58,151 nt of DNA from Sheuella sp. (GTDB lineage Bacteria > Pseudomonadota > Gammaproteobacteria > Burkholderiales > Burkholderiaceae_B): positions 1 through 58,151 of the forward strand of contig JAUSCY010000065.1 of assembly GCA_030650995.1 (NCBI GenBank), written 5' to 3'. The position numbers and the translations under genes are program-made. This document shows, in pieces, positions 1,341 to 9,697 of the stretch; position 1 is the first letter of the stretch; every line of letters starts with the position of its first letter. The notes below the pieces were generated by a model, which ran no database searches, was not told the origin of the DNA, and saw nothing but the letters and a program-made list of their open reading frames with translations.

Positions 1341-2204
1341 TTACTTGACGTGCTTCCAGTAGGGAGCATTCAGACGCCAAGCAACAACCAGGAACAGGCC
1401 AAGAAACAACATGACCCAGACACCAATCTGCTTGCGTGTCTGCTGGATAGGCTCTGACATCCATGTCATGAATGCTGTCAAATCAGCCATGTCATTGTCG
1501 TACGCAGCTGAACGGGCAGCATCAGCAGGCTTGAACTGATATTCAGTTTTAGCTTTGCCGTTGTAACCTTTAACTTCCTCTGTTTTTGAGGTTGCATATC
1601 CTGCTGCATCATAGGTAGTTGTGACACGTTCCCATGTCGCGTTGCCATGACCACCTTTGCTGCCAGCAGCTTCATGCTGGTGCAGGGTAATTTCGGTCAT
1701 CGCGCGTGGGCCCTGGCGTTCCCAAAGGACATGTGGCATGCCAGCGTCGGGGAATGCGAGGTTATTCCAACCGGTTGGTTTAGACGTATCCCGATAGAAA
1801 GTACGCAGATAGGTGTAAATGTAATCAGCACCCGTCACACTCGCGCTCTGAGCTTTGGCGCGTGCCATGACTGAGAGGTCTGGTGGAGGTACGCCAAACC
1901 ATGCTTTACCGTCTTTTACTGTGAGAGAACCAAGCATCAGATCGCCGACTTTTTCACCCGTAAACAGCAAGCTTTCTTTGATTTGCTGGTCGGTTAAGCC
2001 GATGTCTTTGAGCTTGTTGTAGCGCATCGCAGATGCGCTGTGGCAGTTGAGACAGTAATTAACAAATAGTTTTGCGCCATTCTGCAAAGACGCCAGATCG
2101 TTGACACGGTCAGGCGCTTTGTCGAGCGTATATCCACCGCCTGCGGCGCTTGCCGCAGAGCAGGTGATCATCAGGGCAAGAGCACAAAGCAGCTTCTTGA
2201 TCAT
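1341..2204 (-). CDS. petC: Ubiquinol-cytochrome c reductase, cytochrome c1
   Basis: Cytochrome c1 passes electrons from the Rieske protein to soluble cytochrome c on the periplasmic face of the bc1 complex. From the ATG at 2204 (287 residues) it begins with a signal peptide (MIKKLLCALALMITCSAASAA). Heme c binds at CLNCH (residues about 51-55), and the sixth ligand is probably Met about 156 in PDAGMPHVLWE. A C-terminal membrane anchor (IGVWVMLFLGLFLVVAWRL) precedes WKHVK. A longer frame begins with TTG at 2234, overlapping the petB stop, but the GGA eight bases before 2204 and the signal peptide favour the shorter start. It is the last gene of petABC. Confidence 0.95.
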   Translation of the reverse strand: MIKKLLCALALMITCSAASAAGGGYTLDKAPDRVNDLASLQNGAKLFVNYCLNCHSASAMRYNKLKDIGLTDQQIKESLLFTGEKVGDLMLGSLTVKDGKAWFGVPPPDLSVMARAKAQSASVTGADYIYTYLRTFYRDTSKPTGWNNLAFPDAGMPHVLWERQGPRAMTEITLHQHEAAGSKGGHGNATWERVTTTYDAAGYATSKTEEVKGYNGKAKTEYQFKPADAARSAAYDNDMADLTAFMTWMSEPIQQTRKQIGVWVMLFLGLFLVVAWRLNAPYWKHVK

Positions 2205-2230
2205 GGTCATTCCGTAATTAAAGTTTAAGC

Positions 2231-3610
2231 TCAATGGGCGTGGAACGTGACACGGTCAGGGACCGTCTTGAACGTACCGAGACGACTCCATACCGGCATC
2301 AGGAAAAAGAAGCCCAGATATATGAGCGTACCAATTTGCGAGATGAGGTTGAAGATATCCGTTGGGGCCTGCGTACCGAGGTATCCGAGCACGACGAAGT
2401 TCGCAAAGAAAATACCGTAAAGCACTTTGTGCCAGCCGGGACGATAGCGAATCGATTTAACCGGGCTGTAATCCAGCCAGGGCAGGAAAAACAGGAGTAC
2501 CACGGCACCACCCATTGCGACCACACCCCAGAATTTGGCATCAATGCCGCGTAAAAGAACAGCAACAACGATCAGCACGACAGGTACAACAATCTTGACC
2601 AGGCCCTTGTGTCGCAGGAACATCACGATGGCAGCAAGTGCTGCACAGCCGGCCAGCACCCAGGTGAAATCATCCGTTGTTGCACGCAACATCGAGTAGA
2701 ACGGTGTGAAATACCAGACCGGAGCGATGTGTAGTGGTGTGACCAGTGGGTTGGCTGGAATGAAGTTGTTGAATTCAAGGAAGTAGCCACCCATTTCAGG
2801 CGCAAAGAAAACAATCGCCATGAAAATGATCAGGAAGCCAGCTAAACCCATCACATCGTGTACGGTGTAGTAAGGATGGAAGGGAATGCCATCCAGTGGG
2901 CGACCGTATTTGTCTTTCTTAGCCTTAATGTCAACGCCGTCTGGGTTGTTTGAGCCAACCTCATGTAGCGCGACCAGGTGCGCAGCAACCAGACCCAGCA
3001 AAACCAGAGGGATAGCGATCACGTGGAAAGCAAAAAAGCGGTTCAGCGTTGCGTCTGACACAACATAGTCACCACGGATCCAGATCGACAACTCGGGACC
3101 AATGAAAGGAATTGCTGAGAACAGGTTCACAATCACCTGCGCACCCCAGAATGACATCTGGCCCCAGGGCAGGAGATAACCAAAGAAGGCTTCTGCCATC
3201 AGACACAAGAAAATGCCAACTCCGAAAATCCAGACCAGTTCGCGAGGTTTACGGTATGAGCCGTAAATCAGCGCACGTGTCATGTGCAGGTAGACCACGA
3301 CGAAGAACATCGAGGCGCCTGTGGAGTGCATGTAGCGGATGAACCAGCCACCTGGGACCTCACGCATGATGTATTCAACCGACTGGAAAGCCAGCAATGC
3401 ATCGGGCTTGTAGTGCATGACCAGGAAAATGCCGGTCACAATCTGTAGAACTAGTACGACCGTGGCTAAAGAGCCAAAAAAGTACCAGAAGTTAAAGTTC
3501 TTAGGCGCGTAATACTCGGTCACATGCGCTTTCAGTGTAGAAGTCAACGGAAAGCGGCGGTCAATCCAGCCAACTAGTCCTGTCGTTTCGACGGTTTTAT
3601 CGCCAGCCAT
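2231..3610 (-). CDS. petB: Ubiquinol-cytochrome c reductase, cytochrome b
   Basis: This 459-residue membrane protein carries the two b hemes and the quinol/quinone sites of complex III. Heme ligands appear as paired histidines H95 (YMHSTGA), H109 (YLHMTRA), H196 (AFHVIAI) and H211 (AAHLVAL). The Qo-site motif reads PVWY (IAPVWYFTPFY) instead of the mitochondrial PEWY; I recall non-PEWY forms from beta- and gammaproteobacteria. It is longer than mitochondrial cytochrome b because of extra hydrophobic C-terminal segments. The gene lies 50 bases after the end of petA and runs into petC. The protein is intact, which matters for judging the interrupted petA next door. Confidence 0.97.
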   Translation of the reverse strand: MAGDKTVETTGLVGWIDRRFPLTSTLKAHVTEYYAPKNFNFWYFFGSLATVVLVLQIVTGIFLVMHYKPDALLAFQSVEYIMREVPGGWFIRYMHSTGASMFFVVVYLHMTRALIYGSYRKPRELVWIFGVGIFLCLMAEAFFGYLLPWGQMSFWGAQVIVNLFSAIPFIGPELSIWIRGDYVVSDATLNRFFAFHVIAIPLVLLGLVAAHLVALHEVGSNNPDGVDIKAKKDKYGRPLDGIPFHPYYTVHDVMGLAGFLIIFMAIVFFAPEMGGYFLEFNNFIPANPLVTPLHIAPVWYFTPFYSMLRATTDDFTWVLAGCAALAAIVMFLRHKGLVKIVVPVVLIVVAVLLRGIDAKFWGVVAMGGAVVLLFFLPWLDYSPVKSIRYRPGWHKVLYGIFFANFVVLGYLGTQAPTDIFNLISQIGTLIYLGFFFLMPVWSRLGTFKTVPDRVTFHAH

Positions 3611-3660
3611 GAAATGGCTCCTTTGTTCAGTGTCGTGTTGCAGTGTGGATCAAAGGCCGA

Positions 3661-4302
3661 TCAGGCCTTGTTGTTCTCATCAACCCCGACAATGATGCGG
3701 GTGTCGCTTAGGTATTGGTATGGTGGAACTTCGAGGTTGTCAGGCGCGGGTTTGTTTTTATACACGCGACCGGCCATATCAAAGGTCGAACCATGGCACG
3801 GACAAAGGAAGCCGCCGTCCCAATTATTAGGCAAGCCTGGCTGCGCCCCATTAGCAAACTTAGGAGTAGGCGATCATCCGAGGTGTGTACAAATACCAAC
3901 GGCAACAAACATCTCGGGTTTACGTGAGCGCCAGCCATTTTTGGCATATGGCGGGGTAAAACCTGGACGATTTGAGTTGGGATCAGCCAGCTCGGGGTCA
4001 TTAGAGGGGAGCGCATCGAGCTGCTCTTTGGTGCGGCGGATGAGCCAGACAGGTTTGCCGCGCCACTCGACGGTGCGCATTTCACCTGGGGTCATCGTGC
4101 TGACATCTACTTCTACTGGTGCGCCAGCCGCACGAGCGCGCTCTGATGGCGCGAAGGTGCTGACAAACGGGACTGCAGCGGCAACGCCTGCTACTCCGCC
4201 CATGGCACAGGTCGTGCCAATCCAGAAACGGCGCGAGGGGTCGGACGGCAGCGTGGGTGGAACCGCGCCTTCGTCGTCATGCACAATCGAATCCTGACTC
4301 AT
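3661..4302 (-). CDS. petA: Rieske iron-sulfur subunit of cytochrome bc1, with an in-frame UGA at the disulfide cysteine codon
   Basis: The Rieske subunit takes the first electron from ubiquinol at the periplasmic side of complex III. Residues 1-142 include a Tat-type N-terminus (SRRFW near 23-27, then a hydrophobic anchor) and the first cluster motif C138-T-H140-L-G. Codon 143 is TGA (3876-3874). In the same frame the sequence continues as SPTPKFANG, then C167-P-C169-H170-G-S, to a normal TGA at 3663-3661. Cluster ligands C138, H140, C167 and H170 are all present; only position 143, which in this family is the cysteine disulfide-bonded to the C169 equivalent, is a stop codon. There is no frameshift or other damage. 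Possible explanations are sequencing error, a recent nonsense mutation, or UGA recoding as selenocysteine or cysteine. The intact downstream frame and the normal petB/petC suggest the gene is or was recently functional. Confidence 0.85.
3874..3876 (-). other. In-frame TGA replacing the second cysteine of the Rieske CTHLGC motif
   Basis: The codon series reads TGT ACA CAC CTC GGA TGA TCG CCT, giving C-T-H-L-G-stop-S-P where the family has C-T-H-L-G-C-S-P. One base change (TGC or TGT to TGA) explains it. By hand, the RNA after the UGA can form a short CGCC/GGCG stem (bases 2-5 with 27-30 after the codon) with a large irregular interior. This is not a convincing bacterial SECIS element. No selenocysteine machinery genes are in the window. 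Confidence 0.9.
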
Positions 4303-4411
4303 CTTCCTATCCTTGTTGTTGCTCTGGCATTTATATGCCTGGCTGTACTACTTTGATCATTTACTTCGTGTTTCGCAAAGATTTTGCGTCCACTATTCGC
4401 ATCGTATGGGC

Positions 4412-4441
4412 TTGTTGCATATTCCCATAACCCCTTATTAT
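4412..4441 (+). promoter_or_regulatory. Possible sigma-70 promoter of mscL
   Basis: TTGTTG at 4412-4417 and TATTAT at 4436-4441 are 18 bases apart, about 38 bases before the mscL start codon. The 176-base region 4303-4478 also has to hold the divergent petA promoter, for which I see no clear match. Confidence 0.4.
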
Positions 4442-4478
4442 AGCGCTAGCCACGTGGCAACTAAAAGAGGAAAATCAA

Positions 4479-4934
4479 ATGAGCCAAACTAAAGGATTTT
4501 TTAAGGAATTCCGGGAATTTGCCGTCCGCGGCAATGTCGTTGATCTGGCAGTTGGCGTAATTGTTGGCGCGGCTTTTGGAAAAATTGTCGAGTCTATCGT
4601 TAAAGATATCGTGATGCCGCTGGTCAATTTTGTCTTAGGTGGATCCGTTGACTTTACAAACAAATACCTGGTTTTGTCGCGTCCGTCTAATTACTCTGGC
4701 CCTGAAACCTATGCAGAACTCACGCGCGCCGGCGCCACAGTATTTGCCTGGGGCAACTTTGTAACGATTGTGATCAATTTTGTACTGTTGGCGTTCATTA
4801 TTTTCTGGATGGTTAAAGTCATCAATACTGCACGCGCAAGTATTGAGTCAGAAAAAGAAAAAGTGGCGCCCTCGACTCCAGAGGATGTGGCACTACTGCG
4901 CGAAATCCGCGATTTGCTCAAAAACAAACAGTAG
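4479..4934 (+). CDS. mscL: Large-conductance mechanosensitive channel MscL
   Basis: MscL is a homopentameric inner-membrane channel that opens under membrane tension to release solutes on hypo-osmotic shock. The 151-residue product has the N-terminal amphipathic helix ([23 protein letters not shown]), the glycine-rich pore-lining TM1 ([13 protein letters not shown]), a periplasmic loop, TM2 ([19 protein letters not shown]) and a charged cytoplasmic helix ending in [13 protein letters not shown]. An AGAGGA ribosome binding site precedes the ATG. It is transcribed divergently from petA and converges on the nif3-like gene. Confidence 0.97.
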
Positions 4935-4965
4935 TCAGCGATTACGATCCGGCGGCGTCTTTTCG

Positions 4966-5766
4966 TTAAACCGGATTGTCTATATCAATGAAGTCGACCC
5001 GGACATTGAAAGTCCGGGTAATTTCACGCCCTAGCGCCTGAACGCCATAACGCTCGGTGGCGTGATGTCCCGCGCTGATAAAGGCCACGCCTGACTCACG
5101 CGCCAGATGAACGACCGGTTCTGAAATTTCACCCGTAATAAAACATTGCGCCCCAGCGTCAATAGCATCGCCCAACATATTTTGCGCAGCACCTGTACAC
5201 CAAGCAATACGTTCAATTTTCATATCCATGTCACCAATGACCAAAGGGGCGCGGCCCAGGCGTTGCTCTGTTTGTTGTGCAATCTGGCCTAAGTTAGGCG
5301 CGCCGGGCATGCTGCCTAACCAGATCAGATTGCCAGGTCCGGCCGTGACGGGAAGGTTGTTTTCGATGTGTGTCGTATCGAGGAGTGCCTGGCGATCGGG
5401 TATGAGTCCGAGAATTTGAGCTAACTGCGCGTTATTGCCCAATACAGGATGGGCGTCGAGCGGGAGGTGATAGGCGAGCAGATTGATATTGTGCGCCAGG
5501 AGTTTTGCAAGTCTGTTTTTGCGGGTTCCCCGGACCCGGGGATCTTCGCCTTTCCAGAACCAGCCGTGATGAACCAGCAAGGTATCCGCCCCCTTTGCGA
5601 TCGCCTCATCAATTAAGGCCTCACAGGCAGTCACTCCCGCGATAATATGTGAGACTTGTGGTTGGCCCTCGACTTGAAGACCGTTGGGGCAATAATCATT
5701 AAACGACGTTGTGCTGAGTGTGGAGTCGATCCATACACATAGTTCGCGCGTTGATACATTTTGCAT
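4966..5766 (-). CDS. Nif3/YbgI-family dinuclear metal-binding protein
   Basis: This 266-residue product matches the Nif3-like (YbgI) family, conserved proteins with a dinuclear metal site and debated function. The metal-site motif LLVHHGWFW lies near residue 65, and the C-terminal AGHHATERYGVQALG supplies the second set of ligands. NDYCPNGLQVEG is the classic N-terminal family block. The start at 5766 is chosen because GGAAA sits 8 bases upstream; another ATG at 5781 in frame has no such site. The gene is head to head with the protease gene, the two starts being only about 19 bases apart. Confidence 0.92.
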   Translation of the reverse strand: MQNVSTRELCVWIDSTLSTTSFNDYCPNGLQVEGQPQVSHIIAGVTACEALIDEAIAKGADTLLVHHGWFWKGEDPRVRGTRKNRLAKLLAHNINLLAYHLPLDAHPVLGNNAQLAQILGLIPDRQALLDTTHIENNLPVTAGPGNLIWLGSMPGAPNLGQIAQQTEQRLGRAPLVIGDMDMKIERIAWCTGAAQNMLGDAIDAGAQCFITGEISEPVVHLARESGVAFISAGHHATERYGVQALGREITRTFNVRVDFIDIDNPV

Positions 5767-5784
5767 AATTTTTCCGGTCATGTG

Positions 5785-6939
5785 ATGCGTCGAATCTGGT
5801 TACTTTTTGCCCAAACTGTCACGGTTTGTCTGGCTATTTTATTCGTGGTGACGACCCTGCGTCCTGAATGGCTGCGCAGAGCGCCTCCTCAGGCTGTTTC
5901 AGGCGTTGTACCGAGCCTGACGGTGACCGATGCCTCCGCTAGCGGGTTGTCGAACTCTTACGCGGAGCCCGTTGCGCGGTCTGCGCCGGCGGTTGTAAAT
6001 GTGCATACAACCAAGCGTATCGCTGCTCCGCGCATCATCATGCCCGCAGATCCGATATTAAGACGATTTTTTGAGCAGATGCCTGGTTTTAATCAACAGC
6101 AAAAGACCACAAGCCTGGGTTCGGGCGTACTCGTTTCTGAACAAGGTTACGTACTGACGAATCTGCATGTAATTGATGGCGCCGATGAGATCGTGGTTGC
6201 ACTCAACGATGGCAGGCAATCACCTGCCAAGGTTGTCGGGATTGATCCTGACACCGATCTGGCTGTGCTGAAGATCACGCTCAAGGAATTGCCGGTCATT
6301 GCTTTTGCCGCAAATGAGACCCCACAGGTTGGTGATGTCGTTCTGGCAATTGGAAACCCCTTTGGAGTGGGACAGACGATCACGATGGGGATTGTTTCAG
6401 CACTGGGGCGCGGGGGGCTCGGACTCAACACTTTTGAGAACTTTATTCAGACTGATGCAGCAATTAATCCTGGCAATTCCGGCGGTGCCTTGATTGATGC
6501 TCAGGGTCGCTTAATAGGCATTAACACTGCTATTTACTCCAAAAGTGGCGGTTCACTGGGGATTGGGTTCGCAGTCCCTGCACGTACGGCAAAGCAGGTG
6601 CTTGAGCAGATTGTCAGCCAAGGCTACGTCAAGAGGGGATGGCTGGGAATTGAACCGCAAGACATGACTGCAGATCTTGCGCGTGCTTTTGGTCTGGAAC
6701 AGGCCACAGGAGTCATTATCGCTGGAATGTTGCGCGATGGCCCTGCCACCCAAGGTGGGATGAAAGTGGGCGATATTGTGCAGTCAATCGATGGCCGGGC
6801 CGTAGACAATACCCAACAGTTGTTGTCGCGGATTGCTGCGTCAACGCCAGGCCAGCCAATTGAACTTGGCGTATTCAGAAATGGCAAACAAATCAAACTC
6901 AGTCTGATTTCTGGATTGCGCCCCGTCAGGCCGAAGTAA
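5785..6939 (+). CDS. DegS/DegQ-type periplasmic serine protease (trypsin plus one PDZ domain)
   Basis: The 384-residue protein begins with one membrane segment (LLFAQTVTVCLAILFVVTTL) that probably anchors it in the inner membrane. The trypsin-like domain carries the catalytic triad: His in LTNLHVIDGA, Asp in DTDLAVLKI and Ser in NPGNSGGAL. A single PDZ domain (residues about 275-375) follows. A membrane anchor plus one PDZ domain is the DegS architecture, while soluble DegP/DegQ have two PDZ domains. A role in envelope stress, for example cleaving an anti-sigma factor, is inference. No clear ribosome binding site precedes the ATG at 5785. Confidence 0.9.
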   Translation: MRRIWLLFAQTVTVCLAILFVVTTLRPEWLRRAPPQAVSGVVPSLTVTDASASGLSNSYAEPVARSAPAVVNVHTTKRIAAPRIIMPADPILRRFFEQMPGFNQQQKTTSLGSGVLVSEQGYVLTNLHVIDGADEIVVALNDGRQSPAKVVGIDPDTDLAVLKITLKELPVIAFAANETPQVGDVVLAIGNPFGVGQTITMGIVSALGRGGLGLNTFENFIQTDAAINPGNSGGALIDAQGRLIGINTAIYSKSGGSLGIGFAVPARTAKQVLEQIVSQGYVKRGWLGIEPQDMTADLARAFGLEQATGVIIAGMLRDGPATQGGMKVGDIVQSIDGRAVDNTQQLLSRIAASTPGQPIELGVFRNGKQIKLSLISGLRPVRPK

Positions 6940-6949
6940 TAGCTAAGTA

Positions 6950-6975
6950 AAGAGGGGTACGCAGGCAGCCCTCTT
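6950..6975. terminator. Possible shared terminator between the protease gene and the XRE gene
   Basis: AAGAGGG at 6950-6956 pairs with CCCTCTT at 6969-6975 around a 12-base loop, between the stop codons of two converging genes. No long T-run is present, so termination is tentative. Confidence 0.35.
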
Positions 6976-6987
6976 GATTCAGCTAGC

Positions 6988-7317
6988 TTATTCCGGGGTG
7001 TCGGAGTTTTTATGGTTACTGGTAACAAGCGTTGATTCTGCTTGAATTAAAACCAGACGACGTTCTGCAGGACTCAACAGATAAAAAATTTCCTGGAGAC
7101 GCGCATGCTCTTCGTCTTCTGTATAAAACCAGCTGACTGGCATTTTGAGAATCTCAGCGACACGGCACATCAACTGATAGTCAGGTGAGTGTTTGCCGCG
7201 CTCATACTGATTCATTCGTGCGCTGGCAGACATGGGGTCGATGCCAGCGAGTTTGCCGAGTTTTTCTTGGGAAAGACCAGCGCGGAGACGAGCTTGTTTG
7301 AGACGATGTGCGAGCAC
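6988..7317 (-). CDS. Small XRE-family helix-turn-helix regulator
   Basis: The 109-residue protein has an N-terminal Cro/CI-type HTH: residues about 4-60, with LKQARLRAGLSQEKLGKLAGI, then MNQYERGKHSP and MCRVAEILKMPVSWFY. A short helical tail (LQEIFYLLSPAERRLVLIQAES) may dimerise. It starts with GTG at 7317 behind AAAGG. Targets are unknown; two inverted repeats just upstream of its start suggest autoregulation. It converges on the DegS-like protease gene. Confidence 0.85.
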   Translation of the reverse strand: MLAHRLKQARLRAGLSQEKLGKLAGIDPMSASARMNQYERGKHSPDYQLMCRVAEILKMPVSWFYTEDEEHARLQEIFYLLSPAERRLVLIQAESTLVTSNHKNSDTPE

Positions 7318-9071: not shown

Positions 9072-9314
9072 TTAATGGGTGCCGGATTTCTCTTTGGCTT
9101 GAACGTCGATTGTGTCTCCACCTGCCACGCGTTGTGCGGGAGCGGCTTCGGGTGGCGCTTCGCCTTCTTTGGCGTTGGGATCTTTCATCCCTTCTTTAAA
9201 GCCTTTGACGGCACCACCCAGATCCGCACCAATATTACGGATTTTTTTAGTACCAAAAATCAGCGCAACAATGACCAGAACGATTAACCAGTGCCAAATA
9301 CTGAAACTGCCCAT
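9072..9314 (-). CDS. tatA: Sec-independent protein translocase subunit TatA
   Basis: TatA forms the oligomeric pore-like part of the Tat system. The 80-residue form starting at 9314 ([21 protein letters not shown]) has one N-terminal membrane helix, then the [24 protein letters not shown] amphipathic helix and an acidic/Ala-rich tail. The frame is open further upstream into the HIT gene, but the canonical MGSFS start is clearly correct. Confidence 0.97.
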
Positions 9315-9328
9315 AGCGGTTCTCCGAA

Positions 9329-9697
9329 TTAGACTGCAGCGGCCAGTGGACCCTTCCAGGGACGTTTGCCACCAATAATATGAAAATGGAGGTGTAAGAC
9401 TTCTTGCCCGCCATCGTTGCCTGAGTTGGCTACGATACGAAAGCCACCTTCTGAACCAGGATTGCAACCGTTGTCCAGTGCAATCTTAGGAATATTAGAC
9501 ATCATTCTACCTAACCAAACGCCATCTTCGGCAGTTATATCTTGCATGGACACAACATGGTGTCGCGGAATGGCTAACAAATGAACGGGGGCGGCTGGAT
9601 TAATGTCGTGGAAAACCAGACAATCTTCATCTTGGTGCACAACGCGGGCAGGGATTTCACCGCGAACAATTTTGCAGAATATACAGTTTTCGCTCAT
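9329..9697 (-). CDS. HIT-family (HINT-like) nucleotide hydrolase
   Basis: The 122-residue protein shows the zinc-site start [13 protein letters not shown] and the histidine triad HLHFHII near residue 102. Family members hydrolyse nucleoside phosphoramidates and related AMP conjugates. Its place between hisE and tatA is, as I recall, common in Burkholderiales. The physiological substrate cannot be told from the sequence. Confidence 0.95.

Follow-up and report, generated by a model that had tools for sequence, protein, structure and literature searches.

An in-frame TGA at the disulfide cysteine codon of petA in one draft Sheuella genome: a probable nonsense change, with selenoprotein status not supported

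In a draft genome of Sheuella sp., the gene petA, which encodes the Rieske iron-sulfur subunit of the cytochrome bc1 complex, carries an in-frame TGA at codon 143 (3874-3876, minus strand), the position of the disulfide cysteine in the motif CTHLGC. The observation itself, made in a preliminary description of this DNA, is confirmed by translation and alignment; petA as a new selenoprotein is not supported. Very likely, codon 143 shows a single-base nonsense change in an otherwise ordinary petA, in this one draft genome. The window that we analysed (58,151 nucleotides) is the entire contig 100 of the 151-contig draft genome, here called G000 (3.13 Mb, 91.4% complete and 0.23% contaminated). Its source bacterium probably comes from a freshwater habitat. 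Rfam gave zero matches in the window at gathering score, and zero in locus L003 at E≤10.

The gene lies at most 4.3 kb from the contig end and runs on the minus strand from 4302 to 3661, with 213 codons, one internal TGA, and a terminal stop that is likewise TGA (3661-3663). The strand was missing from the preliminary description, and the plus-strand translation of 3661-4302 is not petA. On the minus strand the translation reads MSQDSIVHDD...VGICTHLG*SPTPKF...FLCPCHGSTFDMAG...ENNKA*, such that the open frame, both cluster motifs (CTHLG*SP and CPCH) and the partner cysteine Cys169 are present as had been described. Read through the internal TGA, the protein scores 213.5 bits with the profile TIGR01416 for the bc1 Rieske subunit (cut-off 97.4), and its top match in the PDB is chain C of 8smr (3.8e-61); the 142 amino acids ahead of the TGA reach 122.9 bits on their own. 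Downstream on the same strand follow the genes for cytochrome b (petB, 2231-3610) and cytochrome c1 (petC, 1341-2234), both of which are intact, as had also been claimed. A frameshift in place of the stop is ruled out, because petA aligns gap-free with its near relatives. A petA search of the contigs of the draft genome found no second petA, and the two other Rieske-domain hits, open frames of 111 and 432 amino acids, were unmatched by this search and were rejected as an intact extra copy.

TGA-143 precedes the second cluster-binding loop, and petA has no uninterrupted frame that contains both loops. If UGA is read as a stop, the product as written would comprise 142 residues and would be without the second loop (C167, H170). 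Because the stop removes this loop, the truncated PetA should carry no cluster, and what is known of the family suggests that a working bc1 complex would not be formed.

For comparison, we used 117 petA loci from two overlapping collections, one of which consists of the best 80 of 544 relatives; 88 loci are full length and gap-free, and 61 of these, the window petA counted in, are unique. Codon 143 is TGC in 89 loci, TGT in 27 and TGA in the window petA only, and thus none of the 116 other loci (one collection being the best 80 of 544) shares the TGA, whereas an in-frame UGA common to several members is what one looks for in a bacterial selenoprotein. The partner Cys169 is conserved in 117 of 117 loci, including that of the window. 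At the level of genomes, petA is matched in 39 of 41 (G000 and 40 relatives). Among the 32 genomes of the same genus, 31 have a match, and an internal stop occurs in G000 only. The more distant genome G027 has one TAA within its petA match, which is 56% identical. The nearest relatives by petA, G001 and G003, are both 96% identical to the window gene and have TGT and TGC, respectively, at codon 143. A 23-base pattern around TGA-143 had no matches in the viral_contigs collection. Some metagenome assemblies titled Bordetella parapertussis (L061, L064, L080) contain a petA that is 86-87% identical to that of the window, and these titles look wrong. The adjoining codon 142 (3877-3879) is GGA, which is found in two of the 60 other unique petA genes; the unusual third bases in these adjacent codons prove nothing.

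Comparison with the nearest relatives also covers the sequence on both sides of the stop. Against G001, the codons before 143 contain 36 synonymous and 4 amino-acid differences and those after it 21 and 4; against G003, the corresponding counts are 30 and 5 before and 26 and 4 after. All four amino-acid differences after the stop fall within codons 150-156, and three of them are residues that are common elsewhere among petA members. The exception is Asn151: the 60 other unique genes all have a different residue at this place, Thr in 54 of them. Since the differences after the stop are mostly synonymous in the comparison with G001, this part of petA appears to have been constrained throughout most of its past, and the gene looks as if it was constrained on either side of codon 143 until recently.

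Such constraint would be expected if a suppressor or near-cognate tRNA decoded UGA-143 as cysteine or some other residue, so that a part of the PetA made were full length. However, the constraint is explained equally well if the stop arose recently, and we consider decoding of this kind very unlikely. A genome-wide reassignment of UGA was ruled out, since TGA ends 24 of 54 hand-picked ORFs of the window (TAA 21, TAG 8, one uncounted) as well as petA itself. Release factor RF2 is present in G000, and its tRNA-Cys (anticodon GCA) and tRNA-Trp (anticodon CCA) are both normal. UGA is therefore a normal stop in this genome. The classic UGA-suppressor tRNA-Trp has a change at G24, but the tRNA-Trp of G000 retains G24 in its D-stem (GAGC). 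Furthermore, a TCA anticodon was found at none of the 26 tRNA places read in G000, an incomplete set. In favour of such decoding, passages of PMC7609411 describe tRNA-Cys species with a UCA anticodon in some bacteria.

The alternative that attracted attention to this gene is the insertion of selenocysteine at UGA-143, which would form a selenenylsulfide with Cys169. The position of the TGA at a redox cysteine invites this idea, but the machinery argues against it, and we regard it as extremely improbable. A match to selA at E≤0.001 was not found in G000, which is 91% complete, nor was selA found in G001 or G003; the selA profile is above cut-off in 20 of 41 relatives. Six matches to the selB profile in G000 are all below cut-off and were rejected as selB, because they score best as other GTPases, namely IF-2, CysN or its bifunctional relative, LepA, TypA, PrfC and Der. 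Of the 32 genomes of the genus, selB is above cut-off in 20; the 12 without it include G000, G001, G003 and G047. A tRNA-Sec with a UCA anticodon (selC) was not found in G000 either. Three candidates below the gathering score turned out to be tRNA-Leu, tRNA-Asp and tRNA-Trp, and the same method detects tRNA-Sec in the loci L177 and L178 of relatives. The absence of selC is weak evidence taken alone, because G000 is incomplete and yielded 26 tRNA matches only; that of selA and selB in G000 and its two nearest relatives is stronger.

The preliminary description counted an absence of all selenocysteine machinery, together with a lack of full-length PetA, against recoding. In this 91% complete draft, such absence holds for selA, selB and selC but not for selD, which scores 415.4 bits (cut-off 125). 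This gene, the occurrence of selB in the genus, and the probable selenoprotein genes and tRNA-Sec of relatives speak for selenocysteine, as does the incompleteness of G000. However, the genome has selU as well (352.1 bits, cut-off 219.75), which can explain why selD is there, as selD and selU suffice for 2-selenouridine in tRNA. Indeed, in the part of the work of Romero et al. that bears on this point (PMC1273633), the signature of selenocysteine decoding is selB together with selC, and selD is common to both traits.

The RNA that follows UGA-143 likewise resembles chance sequence. It folds worse than the mean of its shuffles (z +1.30 for 61 bases and +1.03 for 51 bases). We also applied a bacterial SECIS rule of our own, which demands a stem of at least 4, a loop of 3-14 that has G as its first or second base, and a loop start 13-37 bases after the UGA. 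By this rule the petA hairpin has a value of -3.1 kcal/mol, which was equalled by 217 of 500 shuffles, and with a lower limit of 16 bases the petA value was reached by 441 of 1000. In contrast, five UGSC-type TGA sites from three relatives, two of them checked by translation and profile and the other three found by a motif only, gave -11.1 to -13.6, values reached by 11-22 of 500 shuffles. Their fold z-scores are less uniform (-2.11, -1.48, -1.43, -1.11 and -0.48), and a separate fold run on two such sites gave z -3.85 and -1.17; for the latter, 24 of 200 shuffles did as well. The SECIS element looked for after the UGA was thus not borne out.

The UGSC genes deserve a description of their own. 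In L174 (G017:C139:9000-21000), positions 1797-7219 hold two genes of the UGSC family that carry in-frame TGA and strong hairpins, followed by an ORF of 346 amino acids and then by a second type of selB; by coordinates, the order is similar in L175 and L176. Two of the proteins, read through the TGA, score 124.6 and 46.8 bits with the family model NF041046, both below its curated cut-off of 125. One of the genes (L174 1797-3515) continues past its TGA into a long C-terminal part, for which Pfam gave no match at E≤1e-4 and part of which resembles, by eye, the neighbouring 346-amino-acid ORF (DGLPIVPPT / DGLPVVAPT). At least two selB matches above cut-off, some of them partial, occur in 12 of 32 same-genus genomes, and the first type of selB adjoins selA, for example in G023 and G004. 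In G017 (83% complete), the second type is the only selB above cut-off and selA has no match, yet UGSC genes with in-frame TGA are kept. A tRNA-Sec was not found in three 12-kb stretches around second-type selB. It is possible that a dedicated SelB serves the UGSC proteins.

In sum, of the two explanations put forward in the preliminary description, a sequencing error or recent nonsense mutation is supported, and reading of UGA as Sec or Cys is not: selA, selB and tRNA-Sec were not found, the RNA is not structured beyond chance, and TGA is absent from the 116 other loci (one collection being the best 80 of 544). Because read-through machinery was not found, the most likely account of the stop is an error in the sequence or a gene copy that was broken recently, rather than a new selenoprotein. 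It is very improbable that the TGA is real and read through by an unrecognised route, which would yield a Rieske subunit of bc1 whose disulfide residue is recoded.

The stop very likely arose by a single-base nonsense change at codon 143, either as an error in the consensus or as a recent mutation in the sampled population, and it is indeed one base away from the Cys codons of the relatives. How often would such a change strike this residue? The two nearest relatives have an intact petA, in which a stop would be created by 55 and 57 single-base changes. Of these, 5 affect Cys codons and 1 affects codon 143. If all changes are equally likely, random nonsense in petA hits any Cys codon about once in 11 and codon 143 about once in 56. 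The position of the stop on the redox cysteine is therefore suggestive, not compelling.

To gauge how error-prone the assembly is, ORFs of at least 100 amino acids were taken from 620,000 bases of three relatives, of which 574 were left after removal of overlaps, and compared with 395,255 of the 3,132,701 bases of G000; a stop was ignored if it fell within the initial 12% or the final 5% of an ORF. With identity of at least 60%, 182 ORFs were matched. They correspond to 125 distinct places, and a small number of these are perhaps not genes. Apart from petA, no real gene among these comparable places has an internal stop, and no frameshift was flagged. One further ORF with an internal stop (9079-9531, plus strand) is antisense to minus-strand ORFs and was not counted as a gene. 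As the sample is otherwise clean, errors are infrequent in the sampled assembly; for a lone error, this neither proves nor excludes.

We would put the chance that TGA-143 is an error in the assembled consensus at about even. A true null mutation in the sampled population, such that the strain has lost its bc1 complex, is the other form of the nonsense change and is somewhat less than an even prospect. The clean sample and the single-base distance from the Cys codons of relatives are in keeping with it. However, petB and petC are intact, petA has no further break, a lone consensus base in a draft metagenome assembly is weak evidence, and loss of the bc1 complex would presumably be costly to an aerobic bacterium. 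This cost, the clean sample and the placement of the stop on a redox cysteine are also the points against a plain nonsense change as a whole.

If recoding were true, a recoded residue, perhaps containing selenium, would lie within the core of aerobic respiration. The case counsels caution: where a draft genome shows a single TGA at a redox cysteine, the gene should be called a selenoprotein only if selB, selC, a SECIS element and a second example are there too. The selenoproteome study of the GOS sequences, in the sections relevant here, took a similar line (PMC2398784). It accepted single sequences only with a match to known selenoproteins and a strong SECIS element, and it left unrelated lone TGA-containing sequences undecided because sequencing errors were possible. 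Among the literature matches listed on Rieske together with selenocysteine or selenoprotein, judged by title and opening of the abstract, there was no Rieske selenoprotein.

With the UGSC-family (seleno)proteins of same-genus relatives (NF041046), petA has in common an in-frame TGA within an otherwise open gene, but a selB gene is located close to the UGSC genes, and their TGA is followed by a strong hairpin; petA has neither. With the proteobacterial bc1 Rieske protein (TIGR01416; 8smr chain C) it shares the whole protein, both cluster motifs and the gene order with cytochrome b and c1, the difference being TGA in place of the Cys codon at 143. The Rieske subunit AioB of the NT-26 arsenite oxidase, as portrayed in excerpts of PMC3758308, is a Rieske protein that likewise lacks the disulfide; in AioB, Phe and Gly replace the two cysteines, whereas in the window petA the reading frame ends instead.
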